This document shows, one piece after another, positions 1,089-55,582 of a stretch of 64,000 bases of DNA. Origin of the DNA: Prototheca cutis (lineage: Eukaryota > Chlorophyta > Trebouxiophyceae > Chlorellales > Chlorellaceae). The notes under the pieces are model-generated. The model saw only the letters and a list, made by a program, of their open reading frames with translations. It made no database searches and was not told the origin of the DNA. The position numbers were made by a program, and so were the translations under genes. Where the stretch lies: NCBI GenBank assembly GCA_002897115.2, contig BCIH01000005.1:9333-73332 (forward strand), given 5' to 3'. Position 1 is the stretch's first letter; each line of letters opens with the position of its first letter.

Positions 1089-1602
1089 GCCCACCGCGCC
1101 CGCTTTTTGATCCTGATAAGCTCAAATGCTATTTTCAATATGTATGGAACTATTGCATGCGGCTACGGCATGCGTCCTCTGCCAGTCTTGCAAGGCACGG
1201 CACCGCCGGCCGAGGTGTGCGACGGCCCTCGCCTGCGCTCCTCAAGCAACCAACTTCCAATTAATCAAATGGAGTAAATCAAATATATATTATATCGCCA
1301 AAGATTTCTGCGTGGATGAATGGCCACATGCTGTGGGTATGTTGCATGCGGAACCCATGACGGTTGGCAAGTGCTCTGGTCGGTGCCAAGGCCGAAACCA
1401 GCACCGTCGGTTCCATCAGTCTTCCGGCCCAGCTTCAAGAGCGCTCAGAATGGCAGCCCATCCGATCACGAAGTGGACTCCACTCGTCATCCACTTTTGT
1501 CGTATGCAGGATAACGCCTGGGCTTTGCAGCGGCGTCGTGCAGCAGCAGAGGTACATTGACTTGACACGACCCCCCCCCCTTTCGGCCCTGGTGTTTTTG
1601 GG
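1089..1602. promoter_or_regulatory. divergent intergenic region NUFIP1-like/ZMYND10-like
   Basis: This 514-bp spacer separates two divergently transcribed genes and should hold both promoters. It includes an AT-rich patch (about 1262-1300, with TATATAT) in otherwise GC-rich DNA. No specific element can be assigned. A C10 run lies 23 nt before the ZMYND10 start codon. Confidence 0.4.
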
Positions 1603-4074
1603 ATGAAGAGAGGAGAGGCTGAGGACCTGGTCACCAACTTGACGGTTTTCTGCCCCAGTGACGTGCGGAGGGAGTTTATTAATGTTTTCACGGCTTTAGA
1701 ATATCCGCACATGCCTCCGATCGCTTTGAGATCGCATGACTTGCGCCACCGGCCGTGCAGATTGGATCGGCGGCGTGGGCGGCGCAGCACGATGCCCTGC
1801 AGCGCTTGACCGCGATCGCCCAGACCCAGGCCCAGACCCAGAGCGAGGAATGGATCAAAGCCACGCTGTGTGAGGCGAACAAGCTGCTTCCCATTGTTTG
1901 GGAACTCTTCAGCATCGAGGTTGGAACCAGGGTCAATTCTTGAAGGTTGCCATGATTGGTGGCAACCCCCGCTCTCGGCAGAGTCAAGGATGCTCAAAGA
2001 TGGCACTCAAAACTCCCACGCCCTTGCCAGGCATGGAACCAGCATGTTGGAGTGGCTCTGGACAAGGAGGCGTTGTCCAGCTCTTGCGGAGGCCATCTTC
2101 TGCTGTACAGCCTACACCGACACGAGATGCTCGTCGCGTCCCTCCTTGAAGTCCTGAGCTACCACGAGGTATTTTGGGAGCTGACATTGTTCGGCATTCT
2201 TTTGATGAGTAGCATCACGTCGGCACTGTCCCCTATGGATGGCATCCAAGCCAAGCATGCGCTGCACATGCAAACCTTGGGTCACACGATCTCCATGCAT
2301 GGCAGGATGTGCTGGACAGCATTGAGGAAAGCCTGCTCTTTGCGCTTGGCAGCTGGGCCACCCGAAAGCTTGTGCACCTCCTCGGCAAGTGACGTGGGGG
2401 GTAGTGCTATGGACGGCCTGTGTAAACTGCCGCGCACGGGATTCATGATGGCAGGGGGCTCTGATTTTGATAGACCTGGCACTCATCAAAGTATGACCTC
2501 CATTTCCTCACGTGAGCAGAGGAGCCCAAGCGGGATGCAGACACCCTGTCCCTGGCTGCATGCGCCCTCACCATGTCCAGGTGCAGTGTCATAAAAAGGG
2601 ACACTGCGCTTGGCTCCATGGGCTGAGGCACCTGTCCCCGCCATCCCCACCCTCTGACCCCAGTCCATCACCCAAAGACCCATCATGAAGGCCTTGCAAT
2701 CCTGTCTATCTGCAGGTACTTGGCGGATTACGGTAGACGCAGCGCGCCGAGCTTGCTGGCGCACCTGGTAGGGACCCACGACGTCGTGCTCCTCGCGGCC
2801 CGGCTGGCCACTGCCGCGCCCTGGAGGCAAGCTGCGCCATCGAGAGCCCAGGAAGCCCAGATGGTCACGCGAGAGGTCGCCAGCGTGCAACACTCCCCTG
2901 AGCTCCAGGCCTGGCTGCTGATGCACGCAGCGCTGCAGGATGACGGCGTGCGCCAGCGGCTGGATCTCAGCCCTGGCCGGCGGACGATGCTGCTGGAGGC
3001 GGGCAGGGTACTAAGTGAGGGCCTGCTGGCGCACATCCCGTTCCTGCAGCCTCTGGCGACGTTCCTGGGTGCCCTGGAGGCGGGCTGGGAGCCAAATCAG
3101 GATCAAGCCCTGCCGGGGTCAACTCAGCACACCAAGTCGCTGGTCATGGTCTGTCCCCAGGAGCACCCGCTGTTGGGCACGCTGCGGTCGCAGGACTGGC
3201 CGGGCGTGCTGCGCTGCGCAAGGGCACACTTTGAACACCTGTCTTCTGGAGAGTCGGTGCGGAAGCGCCTGCCAGGCATGCTGGCAGCCCTGGAGCTGGT
3301 TTGCACGGCATCCCAGGGGCCTGATGAGGTAGGTAGGGCTTCTTGTTCGAAAGGATGGGTGGGCCGTGGGGATGAGAGCAAAGAGACAAGTCTTGGCATT
3401 GGAGGTGCATCATTCCATGCCATGCTATCTCCCTCCTTTCTTACCTCAGGCCTCAAAGGAGCAACCAACTGGGCTGAGCGTTACCGTGACGGTCTACAGG
3501 GCAGGCGCAAGGCAGGGCAGGTGGAGCATATGGGACGCGTTTGTGCTGCGCACCGCCTCTGGTGCCGGCGCCGCCGGTGAGCGTGTCGCCAGCGCCAGCG
3601 GTGTGACTGGGACCCGGCATGCCCTGAAACGATGCGAGCCAACAGAGAATGACACCAGCATGAGGGCGCTGCCCAGCAAGTGCAAGATGGTGGTGGCTCT
3701 GCATGGGGATGGCCGCCTCTCGCAGAAAGCACTGCTGGAGACTGAACTGAACCTTCCAAGCACCGAGACCAGGCAAGTAACCGAGGGCAATGCCCAGTCG
3801 ATCAATCAACTAGTGCTGCATGACTATTCCTTCCCCCAAATTCCTGCAATCTCAAGCTCTCTAACACATCTCCCCATGCAGAGACACCAGTACCCTTCCC
3901 CCGGCGCTCTGGGTCTCGGCGGGCCAGCTGGCGGCGACCAAGGCCGTGTTCCAAGTCCTGCTGCGCCGGTTGGACGCTCCAAGAGACCGAGACCTCGTGG
4001 CTGGATCATGGTATGCTTACGTCCCTGACAAGGCCGCACTGACTCTGGCAGTGGAAGATCAGGCAGCGCGATAA
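1603..4074 (+). CDS. ZMYND10-like axonemal dynein assembly factor, no MYND finger
   Basis: Seven exons (1603-1662, 1761-1919, 2031-2168, 2306-2388, 2716-3328, 3450-3772, 3882-4074) join in phase to about 522 aa. The order of conserved blocks follows animal ZMYND10. First comes GEAEDLVTNL, then AAWAAQHDALQRL, then KLLPIVWELFSIEAWNQH, then LLEVLSYHEDVLDSIEESL. A YLADYGRRSAPSLLAHL block (human YITDCVDSLSLSTLSRML) is followed by LAHIPFLQPLATFLGALE. ZMYND10 (DNAAF7) works in the cytoplasm with LRRC6 and HSP90 to pre-assemble outer and inner dynein arms, and is normally confined to ciliated organisms. The C-terminal Cys/His MYND zinc finger of animal homologues is absent; the last 170 residues (from the block GLSVTVTVYRAG) are unrelated to it. 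Intron 6 has a GC donor (AG|GCAAGT). The family call rests on recalled homology across the N-terminal 340 residues. Confidence 0.82.
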
Positions 4075-4368
4075 ACAGCAAGTCCCCTGCGTTTGGGGAG
4101 CATCTTGGACCTCCATTGCAAACATTCCCCCCTCAAGCCCACCACCCCCCGCACACCCACATCGATCGCCCTGGTGGAATTGCCCCGCTCATGGAGAAAC
4201 TTCCCATTCTTGCCGGCCAGACACCTGGTCCTCGCTGATGAAACATTAAGATATTTGCAATTTTACCCGTTGAAAGGGACTCGGATCAGCGGACTGGCGC
4301 GATTGTGATCCGGCGTGGGGGAAGTGATCCTGCGGCAGGGGCTCTGGTGTGGCTGAACGGAGGTCGCG

Positions 4369-4885
4369 ATGGCGCACGCCATCCCTTTAAAGGCAACAGT
4401 TCCAGCAGCTGGGGCTCCAGTGAAGGAGCATGCCTCATGGTCACCGTGAGTTCTTGGGGGGCAGTGAGGTGATCCCGACGCTCGGCTCATGTGGAAGTGG
4501 GCTTCTAAACCCCGATCCTCAGCGATCACACCCCACCCTCCCCTGCCCTCTCCCATGGTCAGTTACGATGACAACGGGGGCACCGTGGTGGCGGTGGCGG
4601 GCAATGACTACTGCATTGTGGCAGGCAGCAAGCGCCTATCCACCGGGTACTCCATTCTGACCAGGGACCAATCCAAGATCTTGCAACTGTGCGTCGATTG
4701 GTGGTGCATGGCGAAGGGGTTGTGCGTGCTCGGTCTGAGTGAGCATGGATGTCGATGGCCTGGCTTCAGCTGAGTTGATTCCTGCTTCAGGCGAGGTCCT
4801 TTCCGGTCCATGGCCTCGCCCTGTCTGGAGCGTTGCCTGCGGCATGTCCGCCTCCTCTATGCCCACATCTGGAGTGCTTCCTTGG

Positions 4886-4939
<54 letters not shown>

Positions 4940-5892
4940 CCCCCCCCCCCCCCCCCCCCCCCGCCCCCCCCCCCCCTCTCTCCCCCCCCCGCAAACCTCA
5001 GCTCCCCCAAGGTGGTGGTGGCCAGCGCAGGGATGCAGGCAGACCGCGACGCATTGCATCGCGTGCTTCGGACACGGCACGTGATGTACGCGTTCAACCA
5101 CCGCAAGCCCATGCCGTGCTCGGCGCTGGCGCAGCTGCTGAGCAACACGCTGTACTACAAGCGCTTTTTCCCCTACTACACCTTCAACTTGTGCGCGGGG
5201 CTGGACGAGGAGGGCCGTGGCGCGGTGTACACCTACGATGCCATCGGCTCCTACGAGCGCGTGGGCTACGGCTGCCAGGGCTCTGGCAAGGAGCTGATGC
5301 AGCCCGTGCTGGACAGCCAGCTCAACGCCGCCTCGCCCCTCCTGCTGCCGCCGCAGGTAGTTCTCCTTTCTTTTTTTTGGGGGGGGGTAGTGGCATGTGG
5401 ATACTGCGAGCATTGCAGGCACGGGCTCCTTCGCGAACCGGGCATGAAACCTATCTGCTCGCTGCACTGATTTCACACAATTACCCTGAACAATCCGATG
5501 CATGCACCCCCTCTTCCATGCACAGCCGTGGCTGAGCTCTCTGCCACTGGAGGAGGCCATCGACCTGGTCAAGTCTGCTTTCACCTCTGCCGGCGAGCGC
5601 GACATCTACACGGTGCGAGACCTTCTGGTGTTGCGGGTTATGGGCTATGGGGGGTGGGAGAATGGCCATGGAATAGGGGGATGTGCCTGATTGATTGCTC
5701 GCCATCCTGCGCTTGCGGGCGCCAAGCACAAGCTGACACTCGACGCTCAATCGTCGAAGGCTTGTGTGTTGCGCATGGTTCCACCATGCGAATCGTCCCT
5801 CCATTTCACTGCCGCAGGGAGATGACGTCGAGATTCTCGTCATCACCAAGGACGGTATCCAGGCCCATATTTTGGAGCTCAAAAAGGACTGA
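4369..5892 (+). CDS. PBF1: 20S proteasome beta subunit PBF1 (beta-6 position, PSMB1/PRE7 type)
   Basis: Exons 4369-4445, 4563-4688, 5002-5356, 5526-5612 and 5818-5892 join to 239 aa, the usual length. Met 4369 is chosen because it gives the N-terminal HASWSPYDDNGG typical of this subunit. The body is highly conserved: DYCIVAGSKRLSTGYSI, SNTLYYKRFFPYYTFN, GLDEEGRGAVYTYDAIGSYE, ending LELKKD. PBF1 is a non-catalytic subunit of the inner ring of the 20S core, so lack of a processed N-terminal Thr active site is expected. Intron 2 contains an 87-nt C homopolymer and intron 3 a T8-G9 tract just after the donor. Confidence 0.96.
4889..4975. repeat. near-pure poly-C tract in PBF1 intron 2
   Basis: About 87 nt of C interrupted only by two G. 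It lies 26 nt upstream of the exon 3 acceptor, so it may act as an extreme pyrimidine tract. Long C/G runs elsewhere in this sequence coincide with N gaps, so its true length is doubtful. Confidence 0.9.
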
Positions 5893-7524: not shown

Positions 7525-8702
7525 ATGGCTGAGTCTCTGACCCTGCGCGGTGAGCTCCGTGGCCACAAGGGCTGGGTGACGGCCATCGCGCCTCCCCTGG
7601 ACCCCGAGTCCGACCTGCTGGTGACCAGCTCCCGGTAAGCGGCGTTGAAAGGGACAGTACTTGCCATGGATGGCATTGGCTGCATCGGCGCGTGTGCCAC
7701 CGGGCTGGTGGGATTGGCTGGGTGTGGGCCCAGTGGCGGGAGGGTGGCGCCGACCCCCGAGGTGTGGGCGTTGTCGGCCCGTCATGCACGGCTCGACTGA
7801 CGGCGATGCGAGTTCTCCTTTCGATGCGACTTGTACCTTCCCCCTCCCCATTCTACAGCGACAAGTCGGTGATCCAGTGGACCCTGACCCGCGGCGAGAA
7901 GGAGGACTACGGCTACGCCCGCCGTGCCCTGCGCGGTCACTCCCACTACGTCCAGGACGTGGTGCTGAGCTCCGACTGCCAGTTTGCCCTGTCCGGCTCC
8001 TGGGACGGCACCCTGCGCCTGTGGGACCTGAAGACCGGCAACACCGTGCACCGCTTTGTGGGCCACAGCAAGGATGTCCTGTCGGTTGCCTTCTCCCTGG
8101 ACAACCGCCAGATCCTGTCTGGCTCCCGCGACAAGAGCATCAAGCTGTGGAACACCCTGGCCGAGTGCAAGTTCACGCTGGCCGGCCCCCACGCCCACAG
8201 CGAGTGGGTGTCCTGCGTGCGCCTGAGCCCGCTGTCCACCCCTCCCCTGATTGTCTCTGGCTCGTGGGACAAGACCGTCAAGGTCTGGAGCCTGCAGGAC
8301 TGCAAGCTCAAGGACACGCTGACGGGCCACCGCGGCTACATCAACACGGTCACCATCTCCCCTGACGGCTCGCTCTGCGCGTCTGGCGGCAAGGACGGCG
8401 TTGCCATGCTGTGGGACCTGTCCGTCGGCAAGCACCTCTACTCTCTGGACGCCGGCAACGTCATCAACGCCCTGGTCTTCTCCCCCAACCGCTACTGGCT
8501 CTGCGCCGCCACCGACCGGGGCATCAAGATCTGGGACCTGGAGTACAAGTCGGTCGTCGACGACCTGGATGCCCCCGTCGAGGGCGTCGAGCTGTCCAAG
8601 CAGCCCAAGCCCGTCTCCCTGGCCTGGTCCGCCGATGGCTCCACCCTGTACTCGGGCTACACCGATGGCGTCGTCCGTGTCTGGGCCGTCGGCCGCCGGT
8701 GA
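7525..8702 (+). CDS. RACK1: RACK1, WD40 scaffold of the 40S ribosomal subunit
   Basis: Exons 7525-7634 and 7859-8702 encode 317 aa, the canonical length. Seven WD repeats are visible, with GH and WD-type signatures at [80 protein letters not shown] and [17 protein letters not shown]1 (Cblp in Chlamydomonas) sits on the head of the 40S subunit near the mRNA exit and links translation to kinase signalling. Codon use is strongly C-biased in the third position and there is a single intron, both consistent with a highly expressed gene. Confidence 0.98.
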
Positions 8703-17063: not shown

Positions 17064-18204
17064 ACTGCCCTGATGGGCGGCCGAAACCGTGTTTCTTGAC
17101 AGTCGAGGCCTCGCCGCTTGTAGTGCATTTTCCGCTGGGGTACATGGGCCCTGTACCCCCTGCACCACACAACCTTACCCCCCTCCGATTTTGAACCTGC
17201 CGTCCCTGTATGCCTTGTGTAGACCTGCGCCCGAGCACCCCGTTTGATTCGCTGCTCACTGCTATTGTCGTCCAAATGTCGTCTCGCTTGCCCCCCCCCC
17301 CCCCCCCCCCCCCCCCGGCACAGCGCTTTTTCTTCCTTTCAGTTTTTGCGTTTGAATGAGAGATTCCCTTTCGTGTAGCATTGACTTATGCTGTGCATGC
17401 AGAATTCGTGTCTGGGCATGCTCATGTCTGGAGCATGCTTTCCTGGACAATGTAAACCTACGAATGAAGACATGGAAGGAGCCTCTGGGGGCCGCAGGCA
17501 AGCAAGCATTCAATAGGAAGTGGGCTTGTGACCTGAACTCAATGAGATACTCGCCGTCTATCCAGCGTGGCGAGCTGCTCTCAAATGTTGGAATGCCATG
17601 CGGCGGCGAGACTGACTGGCCCTCGCATTCGCATGTCTGCCGGAGCCGGTGTTGATGACGTGGCTGGAGGCCAGCCAATGCAAAATTCCTGCTTTCCTCG
17701 CGGGACCCGCATCCTGGTTAGGGCCGATTCCCACACCTTACCGGCATGCTGCTCGGCGCAAGGCGTGTAAACAGCAGGCTTCGGTTCAGGGAACGGAACG
17801 AGGGTCATCTGACGTCGCGCCAGTTGATCTGCGGAGCAGGAGTGGCAGGTCTTCGGTCTCGGCCAGCCCGGCTACAGCGAGAGCAGCTCCATGGACCAAT
17901 GACATCCTAGACATGCGAGCAGAGTGTCATTCTTATGCTTCATGTGCCAGCTTGCATGGTAAGTCCGGAATTCTGTCCGACGCTCCTCTGCCCTGCGCGG
18001 GCACGTACGGCACGTAATGCCCGCTGTATGAATGGATCGGTTCGGGACGCCGGGCATGTACTGCCCCGGAGCCATGACCTTGGCCGCTCTCTGCCTTGGA
18101 TGCGCAGGGGTGGGACATCTGAGTATTTGACAAGGACTGGCCGGTCACCAAAGGCCGCTGGCCTAGGGTCTGTCACGGGGGGCGACCTTTGAGTGCAGAC
18201 AGAG
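17064..18204. other. intergenic region upstream of SBP-box gene
   Basis: 1.14 kb with no recognisable coding exon. It includes a 26-nt pure C run at 17291-17316, 228 nt after the preceding stop codon. Probably the orphan gene's 3' UTR and the SBP gene's promoter and 5' UTR. An acceptor-like GTGCAG sits just before Met 18205, so a 5' UTR intron is possible. Confidence 0.4.
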
Positions 18205-20911
18205 ATGGAGGAGGTCCCCGCGATTGCTGCCGCCAGCAGCCCCTCCACCTCCACTGCCAGCATGGGACGGTGGACCAAGGCCCATGCGCCCACGCCTGTG
18301 GAGGGCGGGAGCGCCATGTCCCTCGGCCAGACGTGCGAAACGGCAACGAGGCTCAGCGCGCTGAGCGGGCCCGACGTCGGCAGTGGCGCTGGTGGCGGCG
18401 GTGGTGGGGAGAATGGCGGGGAGGAAGCACACGACAACGGTACAGATCCCGACCTGCCGGCGGTGGAGCTGGAGAGCGGCCTGGCTGCGGCAGGGCCAGA
18501 AGGCAGGCCTGCCAGTGGGGGCCGGGCCGAGCAGGTTGTATCGGGAGATGCCCCTGGCGAGGGCCGCTGTGCTGCCGCCGACACCACTGCTGTCGCCAAA
18601 CCATTTGAGAGTGCTGAGGCCGAGCCAAACTCCAACGGCGACGACGGCAGCCCTGCAGCTGCTGCTGCCACCGCTGCCATGCCACCGCCCGTGGCGGGGG
18701 AGGAGGGGGAGCGGCTTGAGACGGAGTACCCTGTGCTCCCCGACATCGGCCGGCTGCGAGAGTCGCGGAAGGACATCCCGCTGACGTGCCAGGTGATTGG
18801 CTGCGGTGAGAGCCTGGTGGGGCACGCCGACTACTACCAACGCTACCGTGTGTGCAAACGCCACCTCAAGGGGCCGGCACTCGTGGTGGAAGGCGTGCTA
18901 CAGCGGTTTTGCCAGCAGTGCGGCCGGTTCCACCCGCTGACAGCCTTTGACGGTGAAAAGCGAAACTGCCGCGCGCGGCTGGAGCAGCACAACTCCCGCC
19001 GGCGCAAGGTCGTTGCGTCCAGCTCGACGCCGCGCCGAAGCTCTGGCACGCGCGGCAGCAGCAACGGCGGCAGCGCCGACGTGCCCGTGCACCTCCGTGC
19101 TGCGGCGGCGGCGGCCGCGGCCGCGGCCGCGGCCTCGGGCTCCGGTACGGACCTGCCGGGACCGGGGGTGCCGCCGGGTGTGGGCCTGGTGCTGCCCATG
19201 CCTTGTGGCCCCATGTCCATGCACGCGGGGCATGACCAGCACCACCAGCAGCAGCTGGCGGCGGCCCAGGCAGCGGCGGCAGCGCAGCGCGCGCCCCAGT
19301 TCCCATTGGCAGATGTGCTGCTCCGGTCTCTGGCGACGGTGCCGTCGCAGGGCCTGGGCTCGCCGCAATCGTCCCTGGGGGGACTGCTGGAACGATTTTT
19401 CTCCGAGCCCGTCCGCGGCGCCTACGGCTGGAGACCTGCGGGGACGCCACTGGAAGAAAGCATGAGCCGGCGCTCGTCCTATGCCGGCATCCACCCGCAA
19501 GAATCCTCGGGGCTCTACCCCAGCGGAGGGCACCCACTCCTGGGCAACTGGGTGGGTGACGTTTGCTCGTTTGGATGGACGAATGGATGGATGCGGTGAT
19601 GTCGCCAATGCGTGTGTGTCGGGCGTGCATTTGCGAGAGCACTGTGCATGCGACTATGAACACCCTTTCTTACTCCCGATGACGTAACAACATCCCCTCA
19701 TCTCACCTGCACGACTGCAGTCGCAGCTGGAGGGCCTGACTTCTGTGGAGCTGAGTCGCATGCTGTCGTCCACGGCCAGCCACCAGCTGTCCAACCTTGT
19801 GAGTGGTGGGGCTGGTCTGGGTCCCGGCGGCGCCCTGGGTAGCAGCACAGGTCACGACCCGACACGGCCATCGCCCATGTCCAGCATCCAGCTGGGATCG
19901 CTCGACCCCGGCAACATCCAGATGGGCCCACTCGACGCGCGGGTGGCCGCACGGGGCGGGACGCCGCTGTCGCCGTTTCTCGAGACGGCCGCTGCTGCAG
20001 CGGCTGCGGCGGCCGGTGGCGGCTACGACCCTGGTCCCCGACACCTCGTGCCCACCGTGCCTCGGATGGGTTTGACTCCGACGGCGTCGCAGGACTGGGA
20101 TGCGCCCCCGGCCGGGAGCGCGCCCAGCGGCAGCCTGTCGGGCGGATCGCGGCAGAGCTGGGAGAGCGGCAACCCCTTTGCCCACGCGGGCCGCACGGGG
20201 CACGATGGCGCGCCGGCCGCCAAACGTGCTGCTCTTTCTCGGGGTGCTGTCTTTGGCGGGCCCGGTGGATCCGGGGGTCCGCCCGCCTCTGTCGCCGCGC
20301 AGGCTCAGGCCCTCATGGCACGTCAGGCTGCACTGGCTGACGAATATCTTGCCAACCGTCAGCGGCAGGTCGCCATCGCTGCATCCATCCTGCAACAGCA
20401 ACAGCAGGGCGGAGGTGCAGGCGATGCAGGAGAGCTGCCCGGCAACGGCGACCGCGGCTACACGGCCTCCCTGCTGCCTCCTCCGGGCCAGCCGGGCCGG
20501 CATGGGGCCCCTGGAATGCCGCTGGGTGCCAAGCCCGAAGCCGACGTGCAAAGGCTCGGCGGCTCGGGTCTGGGGGGCCCTCCCGTGCCGGCCGGCGCGC
20601 CGCCGCCCGTGCTGGATGTCGGCTCCGCAAGCCAGGACCTGTCTAGCCTGCTGCACAGCGTGCTCAGTGCGCGCACCGGCGACGTCGGGCCCGGCGGCGG
20701 GTTGAGCGCGCAGCAGCTGTTGTTGGCTTCCCTGCTGCTGCAGAGCGGCGGCGACCGGGGCCAGCAGCAGGGGCCCACGAGCGCGCCTGCTGCAAGCGCC
20801 GGCGGTGCATCCAGAGGTCTAGCGCCCGAGTGGCTTCACCTGCTGCAGACATCACTGGGTGTGCCATCCGACCAGGACCCCGTGAACCGGACCCGGGGGC
20901 CCATGCAATAA
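18205..20911 (+). CDS. SBP-box (squamosa promoter-binding-like) transcription factor
   Basis: Exons 18205-19551 and 19721-20911 encode about 845 aa. The SBP domain lies at roughly residues 195-270. All zinc ligands are visible: C-x4-C in CQVIGC, GHADYY, then RVCKRHLK (first finger), and RFCQQCGRFHPLTAFD with the downstream Cys in KRNCRARL (second finger). It ends in the bipartite nuclear signal RLEQHNSRRRK. SBP proteins are green-lineage regulators binding GTAC cores; CRR1 in Chlamydomonas senses copper. Outside the domain the protein is low-complexity: a Gly/Ala/Glu-rich N-terminus, poly-Ala runs near residues 305 and 600, and Gln/Gly-rich stretches. The ankyrin repeats of CRR1 are not seen, so the target pathway cannot be inferred. 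Confidence 0.95.
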
Positions 20912-26723: not shown

Positions 26724-28757
26724 CTACTCGAAAAACTCGGCGTGGAGGGCCTTGACTGCCCGCTGGGCTTCGGCGTCTCGCACGATGAGGCTGATATTGG
26801 TCTTGGAAGCGCCCTGGCTCATCATCTGTACATTCACTTTTTCCCGGCCCAGCACATTGAACACCTGTCCGGCGGGTGGGGGGTGGTTGGTTCGGGGTTG
26901 GCCGGTTGGTCAGGGGCCGGTTGGCAGTGGCTGGCTTTCTTTTTTGTCTGACAGGGATGGTTTACAGTCCCGGGAGAAACAAGCAAATGAACAAGCAAAA
27001 CAATGTCTCACCCGTTCTAGGATGGTGGAGGTCTTTTCGACGTTGCAGATGAGGCAGATGATGGACATCCCCCGGCGGTAGGACGCCTTGGCGATGCCCG
27101 AGAACGCGGCCATGAGCGACTCGAGCTCGTCCTCGATCAAGTCGCGCTCCCACAGCGTGCGCGCCGGGTCGAGGGTGAGGGAGACACTGATTTCGCTGGT
27201 TGCCACGACGTCCACCGAGATCTTTTGCCGTGCAAACACGTCAAACACGCGGGCCAGGAACCCGTACTGGCCCAGCATGCGCGTGGAAGAGATGTCCACC
27301 ATCGTGACAGCCGACTTGAGAACGATCGCGGTTACCAGGGCATCGCTCATGTCGCGCTGCGCCGTGATCAGCGTCCCCGGCGCGGAGCGGTTGTAACTGT
27401 TCTTGACACGGACGCCCATCCCGGGGACTTCTTGCGCGGGCTGCATGGCCTGTGGGTGCAGCACCGTTGCGCCGAAGAAAGCAAGCTCGGTCGCCTCTTC
27501 AAATGTCAACTCTGCGACTGGCCTGGCGGCAGCCACGGCGCGTGGATCAGAGGTTAGGACACCGTCCACGTCCTTCCACACCTGGACCTCTGGCAGGCCC
27601 AACGCAGCGCCCAGCAGCGTGCACGTGAGATCAGACCCACCGCGTCCCAGCGTCGTGATGGCGCCAGACTTCTCGCCCCGGCCCAGGAAACCTGTCACTA
27701 TCGGCAGCGGCCGGCATGGCTGTTGACCGGTTGTCGATCCACCGGCGGTAGAGCAGCTCTGGTCGTCGCCGGCCACGGCCGCCTGGAGGGATTCGCGCAG
27801 GACGGGCAGCGATGCCTCGTAGTTGACGTCGGCGGAGGTAAAGGTGTCGGAAGTGATCACGCCGATGTCAAACGCATCGAGCTGCACGGCGGGGACGCCC
27901 TGGGCACGGAGGTAGGCAGCAAACAGCCGCGTGCTGAGGCGCTCGCCGAACGAAACCAGGGAATCGCGAGCCCTATGTGTCAAGTCTTGCATGATGGAGA
28001 TGCCGACCAGCAGCTGCTCCAATTGTGTCAGCAGGACCTCCACCTCGGCCACCGCCGCAGCGTCCACACCCAGCTCGGCCGCCGTCCGAAGGTGGAGCTC
28101 GCGGATGGCCCGCAGTGGGGCAAGGCCCGAGATCTGCCCCGCACGGTGGTGCAGCGCCTCCTCACCCGCAGCCAGCAACAGGTTGGTCGTCTTGCCCATG
28201 GCAGACAGCACCACGCAGGGGAGCTGCTCGGGGAAGCTGCAGACAATCCGAGCAACTTCACGCAGCCTCTCTGCGCTGGCGACCGAAGAACCCCCAAACT
28301 TCATCACCACCGTCACCTGCCATGATTTGCGTGTGGTTTTTGAGGTGGGGTGGAGACAGGAAGGTCGGCTTGCATGTTGCCTGGCTGGGTTACATGACAA
28401 CAAACACCACTGGCCGTTGCAGCATGCATCACCACTGAAGCGACACAGCCAGCCGCCGGCATGCACATGCAATCCCACCCTGCTGCGGCTGACCTGGTCA
28501 AGGTGCTGGCCAGGGGCTTGGAGGCCGTCGTTCTCCTGGGGAGCGTCCAGGGGCACGGTGGGGCGCACGTGCTCCTCCACACTCAGGGTCCTAGCCCCAT
28601 CCATGACCTTCGGGGGAGAGGCCAGGGAACTGGCATGTGCCAGGCGCAGCCCCCTCCTGCCCAGGAACGGGCCCTGCCTCGCGCATTGCGGCCTGGTCAT
28701 GGCACATGCAGGCGTGGCCAGCGCCTGACACGCCCGGGATCCCGCCAGAAGCGCCAT
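26724..28757 (-). CDS. monofunctional aspartate kinase, plastid
   Basis: Exons 28757-28494, 28316-27012 and 26864-26724 encode about 569 aa. The kinase domain starts with VMKFGGSSVASAERL and contains LSAMGKTTNLLL, the TLGRGGSDLT loop and VWKDVDGVLTSDPR. Two C-terminal ACT modules follow (TMVDISSTRMLGQYGFLARV, and the last exon VFNVLGREKVNVQMMSQGAS). The enzyme phosphorylates aspartate, the entry step to Lys, Thr, Met and Ile. No homoserine dehydrogenase domain is fused, so this is the lysine-sensitive monofunctional plant type; effector sensitivity is inferred from family. Residues 1-60 (MALLAGSRACQALATPA then Arg/Ser-rich) fit a chloroplast transit peptide. Confidence 0.96.
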
Positions 28758-29303
28758 GACAGCCGGGTGGCCGAGCCGACAGCCGCACTGGTCCCTTGCC
28801 TGATACGGCACAAAAGAACAACAGCGAGGCCTAAGGCAGAAAATCGATCAATTGAATATTTTGCAAAATTGTGCACAAAAGTATCCTTTCTATTGAGCTG
28901 GGAAACGCGCGGCAGATTGCACTGTGCCTCCTGGCGCTGCCGCCCACGCCGTCCGCCTCTATTTTTCCGTGGGAGGTTTCTCCAGCCAGTCACTTTCAGA
29001 TCAGTCACCCTCTGTCACCTCGCGGCAGTGCATTGCGGGGGTGCCAGAAAGTATGTCTTACAGTGCTGTCGGTCTGATGTGGTGGGGCCCGATGGAAAGG
29101 CACAGAAAGCTACGGAAGTAAAGCACAGAAAATTACCTCGGGCAGCCTGTTCACGGCCTTATGACAGACAATTCCCTTGGTGGGCACGGGAAGAGTCGGA
29201 TGTGAGTGCGGGATCGGCCAGCAGCTACATTTGCAGAGAAACAGAGTCAAGGGTTGGTGTCGGCAGCCGGCCCCACGGAGTCAACCTGACCAGAGAACCT
29301 GCA
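28758..29303. promoter_or_regulatory. aspartate kinase upstream region / ATG4 3' flank
   Basis: 546 bp holding the aspartate kinase promoter and the ATG4 3' UTR, both on the minus strand. A slightly AT-rich stretch lies at 28835-28890. No specific element assigned. Confidence 0.35.
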
Positions 29304-53811: not shown

Positions 53812-54352
53812 GGCTGCGGGAGCCTGCTGCGGTCCGGGTCTCGCGGGCACTCAGCTCACTGCCACACTGCCAGGGAACTCGCCGAGGTGCTGCTCGTGCG
53901 GATGCTCGAGGGGCTCCTCTTTCGAGTTCGATCCAGCACTATGATTCACTGTGGCTGTGAGGGTCGGATGCAATGCATGCAGCGCAATGCACCCGCTGTA
54001 ATACGCGGAGTGGAACAACCCCACTGGCCATGCACGTGGTGTCGGGCATTAGCTTGATCGGGCGCCCTGCAGGCGCGAGCATGGAATAGTCGACACCCGC
54101 TGGCCACCAATCTGGCAGCACGATTTCTGTCCCATAGAGGTCCCTGAGTGATACCCAGTTCAATGTACGATACAAGCATGAATTTCTGAAAAGCGTGGCG
54201 TGAGGTTTGGAGGCCTGATCCGCCGAGCGCTGTGCGGGACACCCGGATCATTCTTTCACCCCCGACGACCCGCTGGTTGACAACCGAACACGCCAGCGTG
54301 CGATCGAGAGCTCACTGATTCCTTGTCGCATTGCCTGATTGTGGAGTCTGGC
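53812..54352. promoter_or_regulatory. divergent promoter region threonine synthase/lipoyl synthase
   Basis: 541 bp between divergent start codons. Contains CT- and AC-rich patches but no assignable element. Confidence 0.4.
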
Positions 54353-55582
54353 ATGTCGAGCTTGGCCAGCGTGAGCCATGCAGCGAGCTGCATGCGGCCT
54401 TTCACGGCTGTCAGCACCCCCAGGCCCAGGCAACCCATGGTGTCCAGGCAGCAGTGGAACGCCCCATCTGCCCAGGACAGGAGCGTCCCACGGGCAGTGA
54501 GCGAACCCGCTGCGAAAGATGGCGTCAGTGCCTATGATCAGCTGGTGTCCATGGCCCTGGAGAAGGACCCTACACTGCGGGCTCCGGCGGTGAAGCCACA
54601 GCGTCCACTGCGACCCCGCAAGCGCCCGCCCGCAGAGCCCAAAGTCCCCTGGCTGCGACAGCGCGCGCCGCAGGGCGAGCGCTACGAGTTCCTGGTGAAT
54701 CAACTGAGCGGGCTGAAACTCGCTACCGTGTGCCAGGAGGCGCAGTGCCCCAACATCGGGGAGTGCTGGAACGGTGGGGATGACGGCGTGGGCACCGCCA
54801 CCATCATGGTCATGGGCGACACCTGCACCCGTGGGTGCCGATTCTGTGCGGTCAAGACGTCGCGAGCCCCCGCACCGCTGGACCCCGATGAGCCCGAAGC
54901 CACCGCCCAGGCTGTGGCTTCCTGGGGCATTGATTATGTCGTGCTGACCTCGGTGGATCGTGATGACGTCCCCGACGGCGGCGCTGACCACTTTGCACGG
55001 ACGGTGCAGGCCATCAAAGCCCTGAGACCCGACATGCTCATCGAATGCTTGACTCCGGACTTCAGGGGTGACCAGGAAGCCATCCTGCATCTGGCCCGCT
55101 CCGGGCTGGACGTCTTTGCCCATAACATCGAGACGGTGGAGTCGCTGCAGCGGCGTGTCCGTGACCATCGGGCCGGGTACTACCAGAGCATGGAAGTGCT
55201 GCGGCTTGCCAAGTCGGCAGGCGTGCACACCAAGTCCTCCATCATGCTTGGCCTGGGCGAGAGTGACGAAGAAATCATCGACACCATGCTGGATCTGCGT
55301 GACGCGGGCGTGGACATTTTGACGCTGGGGCAGTACCTGCAGCCCACACCCAACCACCTCCCCGTCAAGGAGATGGTCACACCGGAGAAATTTGAGTACT
55401 GGCGGCGCTACGGTGAGGAAACGGTGGGATTCCGCTACGTCGCCTCGGGGCCACTGGTCAGGTCTTCGTACCGCGCAGGCGAATTCTACGTTGCGGCCAT
55501 GCTTCGTGAAGATCGGGCGCAGCAGCGGGAGCCGACAGTGACCCTGGCCGACGGCTCGGAGCTCGCGCTGCCCCAGTTTTGA
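54353..55582 (+). CDS. lipoyl synthase, plastid type (LIP1P/LipA)
   Basis: An intronless gene of 409 aa from Met 54353. The N-terminal about 60 residues ([17 protein letters not shown], then Ser/Arg/Pro-rich) suit a chloroplast transit peptide. Both Fe-S clusters are covered: the auxiliary [14 protein letters not shown] motif and the radical-[11 protein letters not shown] motif. Further blocks are [64 protein letters not shown] and the [10 protein letters not shown] end that supplies the conserved Ser. It inserts two sulphurs into octanoylated carrier protein to make lipoyl groups for plastid pyruvate dehydrogenase. It is one of only two intronless genes here. Confidence 0.96.

Follow-up and report, generated by a model that had tools for sequence, protein, structure and literature searches.

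A predicted MYND-less homologue of the dynein assembly factor ZMYND10 in Prototheca cutis, in a genome with outer-arm dynein genes

Ciliary genes in algae without observed cilia

ZMYND10 (DNAAF7) is a primary ciliary dyskinesia protein, and its partner LRRC6 is also named DNAAF11. In animals, ZMYND10 has been proposed to direct FKBP8-HSP90 to dynein heavy chains (PMC6044906), and a study cited in PMC12633730 has it stabilising intermediate chains; the literature is divided on whether heavy or intermediate chains are the client.

The closest described systems are algae with reduced ciliary gene sets and a centric diatom. Genes for outer-arm components occur in Chlorella variabilis and Coccomyxa, which are without most IFT proteins and have not been observed with cilia (PMC6529398). 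Ciliated gametes have been suggested for Auxenochlorella, where a reduced CiliaCut is accompanied by HAP2 and GEX1 (PMC12636532), and also for C. vulgaris (PMC6972661). Gene targeting through homologous recombination is said to work readily in Auxenochlorella (PMC12636532). HEATR2 has been reported in C. variabilis, and the motile sperm of Thalassiosira has a 9+0 arrangement with outer arms only (both PMC4168999). Elsewhere, dynein heavy chains and motility proteins are treated as largely missing from non-flagellate algae (PMC7455551, PMC6652019), and non-flagellate species are said to lack heavy chains DHC1-7 (PMC7455551). In the Coccomyxa genome paper (PMC3446292), the main text mentions neither flagella, dynein, the outer arm nor the word intraflagellar.

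Ciliary genes in trebouxiophytes without observed cilia are thus already on record (PMC6529398, PMC12636532, PMC6972661), and the idea of a cryptic flagellate stage, which the sequence-only reading of our locus had put forward, belongs to this published pattern. A search of the literature, mostly without subscription papers and supplements, returned no report of ZMYND10 in a trebouxiophyte, and the main text of the Auxenochlorella article (PMC12636532) does not mention the protein. What appears to be new here is a MYND-less ZMYND10 homologue, along with a motor set that seems to consist of outer-arm dynein only, in a host where light-harvesting (LHC) proteins were not detected.

Gene structure, missing finger and alternative ends

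The window, meaning the whole stretch of DNA that was analysed (64,000 nucleotides), corresponds to positions 9333-73332 of contig BCIH01000005.1 of Prototheca cutis, called C5 below. An ATG at 1603 on the forward strand opens a gene whose first six exons (1603-3328), all with GT-AG borders, join in phase into 365 residues with 0 stops. The borders were picked so as to keep the frame open, and the absence of stops is therefore partly by construction; the weakest border of the gene lies between exons 4 and 5 and is a choice among weak sites. The features are listed below in window coordinates. The human ZMYND10 query behind the alignments and shuffle counts was supplied without reference to a database record.

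1603-1662, + strand: exon 1, with the ATG at 1603; contains GEAEDLV; donor GTGCGG; aligns with human ZMYND10 10-22 (4 of 500 shuffles reach the score)
1761-1919, + strand: exon 2; aligns with human ZMYND10 27-79 (0 of 500 shuffles); best coding frame
2031-2168, + strand: exon 3; top local match human ZMYND10 103-124 (2 of 500 shuffles)
2306-2371, + strand: exon 4, 3' border uncertain; top local match human ZMYND10 125-145, colinear (110 of 500 shuffles reach the score)
2522-2580, + strand: exon 5, with its acceptor after AGAG and an uncertain 5' border; codon use ranks this frame first; top local match human ZMYND10 199-211, overlapping that of exon 6 (172 of 500 shuffles)
2716-3328, + strand: exon 6; aligns with human ZMYND10 193-317 (0 of 500 shuffles); predicted mostly helical
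3329-3338, + strand: tandem 5' splice sites GTAGGTAGGG; donor 3329 (GTAGGT) leads to a 172-residue end, donor 3333 (GTAGGG) to a 44-residue end
3450-3775, + strand: exon 7 in the long-end frame, start of the 172-residue segment; coding-like from 3510; no Pfam match
3450-3580, + strand: exon 7 in the shifted frame, alternative end; contains NWAERYRDGLQG, with weak likeness to human WAETYR; stop at 3578-3580
3882-4074, + strand: exon 8 in the long-end frame; stop TAA; coding-like codon scores

Codon use supports the joined frame. With codon log-odds trained on 2018 codons from dynein exons of the same genome, this frame ranked first among the six frames in each of exons 1-6. Against a first-order Markov null of 2000 draws, applied to exons 2, 3, 4 and 6 of the conserved part, exons 2 and 6 were reached 0 times, exon 3 at a frequency of 0.020 and exon 4 at 0.0255. 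The gene at 1603 is real and has an open frame. Seven exons joined in phase had been proposed for it earlier, with no borders given; the in-phase join without a stop is borne out, and our model counts eight exons when the 172-residue end is included.

Compared with this human ZMYND10 query, the product reached a Smith-Waterman score of 215, where 300 shuffles gave 38±5.6 with a maximum of 80. Residues 4-281 align with human residues 10-317 (79 of 275 identical, 28.7%), and exons 1, 2, 3 and 6 are each significant on their own, whereas exons 4 and 5 are not. Past residue ~281 no alignment to human ZMYND10 was found, so the likeness first described over about 340 residues holds as homology over an alignable stretch of about 280. 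Two unrelated helical-repeat controls, supplied in the same way, stayed at the level of shuffles: SPAG6 (ARM) scored 39 and a piece of HEATR2 (HEAT) 41. With the scores of these two controls and no Pfam match, a non-ciliary helical-repeat family was rejected as the source of the N-terminal part. A single-sequence AlphaFold2 model of exon 6 has 12 helices at a mean pLDDT of only 47.4.

No Pfam family matched the gene product. Searches with the 409-residue short-end model returned no homologue at E <= 0.001 among 7998 protein candidates scored, and none in the PDB. Because Pfam, PDB and the protein search were all empty, the family assignment rests on this human query sequence. On this alignment, we take the gene to encode a MYND-less homologue of ZMYND10. 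It resembles the animal protein in the colinear, predicted-helical N-terminal part over human residues 10-317 and in being accompanied by outer-arm dynein genes in the P. cutis genome; it differs in that no MYND finger was found in it and no LRRC6 gene was found in the genome.

The absence of the finger, noted at first sight of the sequence, agrees with our searches. A genome profile search for zf-MYND, which reads exon by exon and which an intron-split finger could escape, found none on C5; scanning the + frames over 1500-4300 by eye revealed no MYND-like Cys/His pattern; and neither of the alternative C-terminal ends has a Pfam match. The genome does hold two zf-MYND matches, at C10:891907-892005 and C7:800129-800209. 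As these are on other contigs than C5, neither was accepted as the finger of the ZMYND10-like gene. Since the C-terminal finger was not found, we file the protein as a MYND-less homologue and not as a full member of ZMYND10/DNAAF7.

The finger had been assumed to be the contact for LRRC6. This premise is not supported by the account of the animal protein in PMC6044906: C-terminal ZMYND10 mutations leave LRRC6 binding unaffected, and FKBP8 binding is abolished by a point mutation in the MYND finger and by another just before it. The same text cites ZMYND10 deletion mutations in medaka as capable of functional rescue. Therefore, by analogy with these mutation and rescue data, a ZMYND10 homologue without a MYND finger could still be functional.

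The tandem donors at 3329 and 3333 allow two ends, neither of which contains a MYND finger. We regard the 172-residue end as somewhat more likely, judging by codon use. From 3510 onward its frame scores 8.1, against -22.4 and -16.3, and in exon 8 it scores 8.3, against -23.2 and -9.6. Markov draws (2000) reached these long-end scores at frequencies of 0.0000 for the whole of exon 7, 0.0005 from 3510 and 0.0010 for exon 8. Compared with human ZMYND10, this end scores 31 (shuffles 31.7), which amounts to no match. A single-sequence model of its exon 7 part (3450-3773, 108 residues) is beta-rich and poor, with a pLDDT of 46.5.

It is also possible, though we lean against it, that the short product from donor 3333 is the genuine one, the 172-residue end having entered the splice model by mistake because a GC-rich frame happens to be open there. 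The adjacent GTAGGT and GTAGGG donors fit this alternative, as does a slight lead of the shifted frame over 3450-3540 (+1.1 against -4.0). The 44-residue end, a weak match only, carries NWAERYR, which resembles WAETYR, found before the MYND finger in the human sequence. Against the alternative, 70 of 1000 shuffles reach this match alone, and the codon scores from 3510 and in exon 8 prefer the long-end frame; with the preceding 100 residues added, 111 of 1000 shuffles reach the match, and those 100 residues on their own are reached by 859 of 1000. The short end would be compatible with all of the functional readings discussed below. The sequence-only reading had the finger replaced by an unrelated segment of about 170 residues, possibly through a domain swap. 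A coding-like 172-residue frame without a human counterpart agrees with this, but with the 44-residue end reached from donor 3333 the C-terminus can also be read in a second way.

Dynein, assembly and gamete genes in the genome

The genome surveyed comprises 19.9 Mb in 23 contigs. The survey reads genes exon by exon with queries that were partly human sequences supplied without a database record, and only top candidates were scored. Two dynein heavy-chain Pfam models gave three matches each, all of them at C11:809-815 kb and C16:21-27 kb. Among the best 60 of 90 PDB matches, the joined C11 pieces were closest to the outer-arm gamma chain (871.5 bits; next DNAH5, 688.8); among the best 60 of 91, the joined C16 pieces were closest to the outer-arm beta chain (1336 bits; next DNAH9, 937.9). 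Thus, two heavy-chain loci were found among the top candidates scored, both outer-arm-like, and further heavy chains may exist. A DNAI2 gene is present on C8 (PDB best match the 70 kDa outer-arm intermediate chain, 200.5 bits) and a DNAI1 gene on C5 (PDB match to DNAI1, an animal chain, 166.4 bits, against 160.3 for the 78 kDa outer-arm chain), completing three of three kinds of outer-arm subunit (heavy chains, DNAI1 and DNAI2).

Three of six assembly factors besides ZMYND10 were recovered: (i) DNAAF1 on C6, (ii) CFAP298 on C14 (Pfam PF11069, 39.1 bits with a cut-off of 27) and (iii) one PIH1 domain on C1. The doublet-microtubule protein PACRG, on C1, matches PACRG chains of solved axonemes (PDB best, PACRG of 6u42). 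The gamete fusogen HAP2 (HAP2-GCS1) is encoded at C11:44667-47590 (PDB best, Hapless 2 of 6dbs). The PDB entries that came out best for the heavy-chain, DNAI2, HAP2 and PACRG pieces (7kzm, 8glv, 6dbs, 6u42) are Chlamydomonas entries, and a chlorophyte host is accordingly the most likely one. Several matched stretches in these companion genes contain stops, which we took as introns, and it is their presence rather than their intactness that is established. Left out of the counts were C8:520446 (33%, another WD40 protein), C1:990950 (27% identity) and C4:1569655 (a leucine-rich-repeat match, 35%).

The earlier reading had named LRRC6, DNAAF genes and dynein heavy chains as genes to look for in the same genome. 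The heavy chains and DNAAF1 are there; LRRC6 was not found with a human query of this kind in genome searches that did recover DNAI2 and DNAAF1, nor were DNAAF3 and DNAAF5 with human queries of their own. Genome searches likewise returned none of four IFT proteins (IFT57, IFT46, IFT88, IFT52), a weak negative in which the IFT46 controls were silent, and no RSP3, the one spoke protein sought, again with silent controls. SPAG6 gave no convincing match: five ARM matches at 26-33% identity, over query positions 1229-1441, were taken as other ARM proteins. All these negatives are weak because of the partly human queries, the exon-by-exon reading, the restriction to top candidates and the silent controls for RSP3 and IFT46.

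The host had been presumed to be a coccoid trebouxiophyte. A genome profile search found no LHC domain (among 14 control genomes, Synechococcus matched); the host therefore appears to be related to that group but colourless, and not one of its green members. The other ciliary genes and HAP2 in the same genome lend support to the cryptic flagellate stage proposed for it: HAP2 would fit a cryptic sexual flagellate stage, and the dynein set together with this gamete-fusion gene is a hint of a motile sexual cell that has escaped observation. The literature searched yielded no account of a flagellate stage in Prototheca, nor did it describe sexual reproduction or motile cells in the colourless Prototheca-like algae, which include animal pathogens; the main texts of the Prototheca genome papers examined and of the Helicosporidium genome paper leave flagella, dynein and meiosis unmentioned.

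In its gene content, P. cutis resembles C. variabilis and Coccomyxa, which have outer-arm components and are missing most IFT proteins (PMC6529398), with none of four found here. It shares HAP2 with C. vulgaris and Auxenochlorella (PMC12636532, PMC6972661). It differs from C. variabilis, which is reported to have kept inner-arm proteins too (PMC12636532), in that only outer-arm-like heavy-chain loci were found, and from the Chlorella, Coccomyxa and Auxenochlorella set in that no LHC proteins were found in its genome. The nearest natural parallel is the sperm of Thalassiosira pseudonana, whose outer-arms-only axoneme (PMC4168999) would match the P. cutis motor set; unlike that sperm, the P. cutis parallel is known from gene content alone, and no flagellum has been seen.

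Proposed role and neighbouring genes

We think it probable, with considerable room for doubt, that the MYND-less ZMYND10 still serves as a co-chaperone for the outer-arm dynein of a short-lived gamete flagellum. The helical N-terminal part would aid the cytoplasmic folding of heavy and/or intermediate outer-arm chains, and in P. cutis it would have as clients DNAI1, DNAI2 and both of the outer-arm heavy chains, one β-like and one γ-like. The motor would drive a transient motile flagellum, probably of a HAP2-bearing gamete, that may be assembled with little or no IFT. The result would be an assembly pathway pared down to a single type of motor, in which the candidate clients were kept and the finger, and possibly LRRC6, were lost. 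We infer the expression of the gene, the chaperone activity of its product and the flagellate gamete, and also that the C-terminus either takes the place of the MYND contact or makes do without it. A stricter form of the proposal, in which two-headed outer-arm dynein alone drives an IFT-less flagellum in a sexual stage, ZMYND10 acts with neither a MYND finger nor LRRC6, and the co-chaperone contact has passed to a new C-terminal segment that may be beta-rich, is tentative and in our view rather doubtful.

The ciliary genes, ZMYND10 included, could instead have been retained for work outside the cilium: ZMYND10 might, for example, fold an outer-arm-like dynein whose task is to move cargo or nuclei in the cytoplasm. 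The failure to find IFT88, IFT52, IFT46, IFT57, RSP3 or a convincing SPAG6 would suit such a role, as would the C. variabilis and Coccomyxa gene sets described above, and repurposing has been considered for the one inner-arm dynein that Ostreococcus has (PMC6529398). PACRG and HAP2 fit a gamete flagellum better, however, and both axonemal intermediate chains (DNAI1 and DNAI2) have been retained; we consider the non-ciliary role unlikely. Least probable of all is that the gene is a decaying relic in an outer-arm set that is being lost, with the lack of a MYND finger, a ZMYND10-like WAERYR readable only in the other frame of exon 7, and the failure to find LRRC6, DNAAF3 and DNAAF5 as stages of decay, since 365 codons are free of stops with the joined frame scoring best in all six exons, exons 7 and 8 score as coding in the long-end frame, and the companion genes remain recognisable across the genome.

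The gamete-flagellum proposal, which we continue to prefer, has two consequences. With an outer-arm dynein set and HAP2 kept side by side, the idea of a cryptic gamete can be put to the test. A naturally MYND-less ZMYND10, perhaps lacking LRRC6 as well, would reveal which part of the protein is the irreducible core for dynein folding.

The remaining features concern other parts of the window. A WD40 gene at 7554-8699 (+) was rejected as a ciliary gene: it is RACK1, residues 102-379 of its frame matching ribosomal RACK1 chains at ~430 bits. Just downstream of the ZMYND10-like gene, a gene at 4560-5890 (+) looks by eye like a proteasome beta subunit, and Pfam on its exon at 5029-5355 gave no family; a run of ~90 bases, almost pure C, at 4889-4976 is possibly assembly-sensitive. 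Further along are an SBP-domain protein (18193-19596, +), an amino acid kinase with an ACT domain (26913-28847, -) and a radical SAM protein with a lipoyl synthase N-terminal domain (54281-55579, +).
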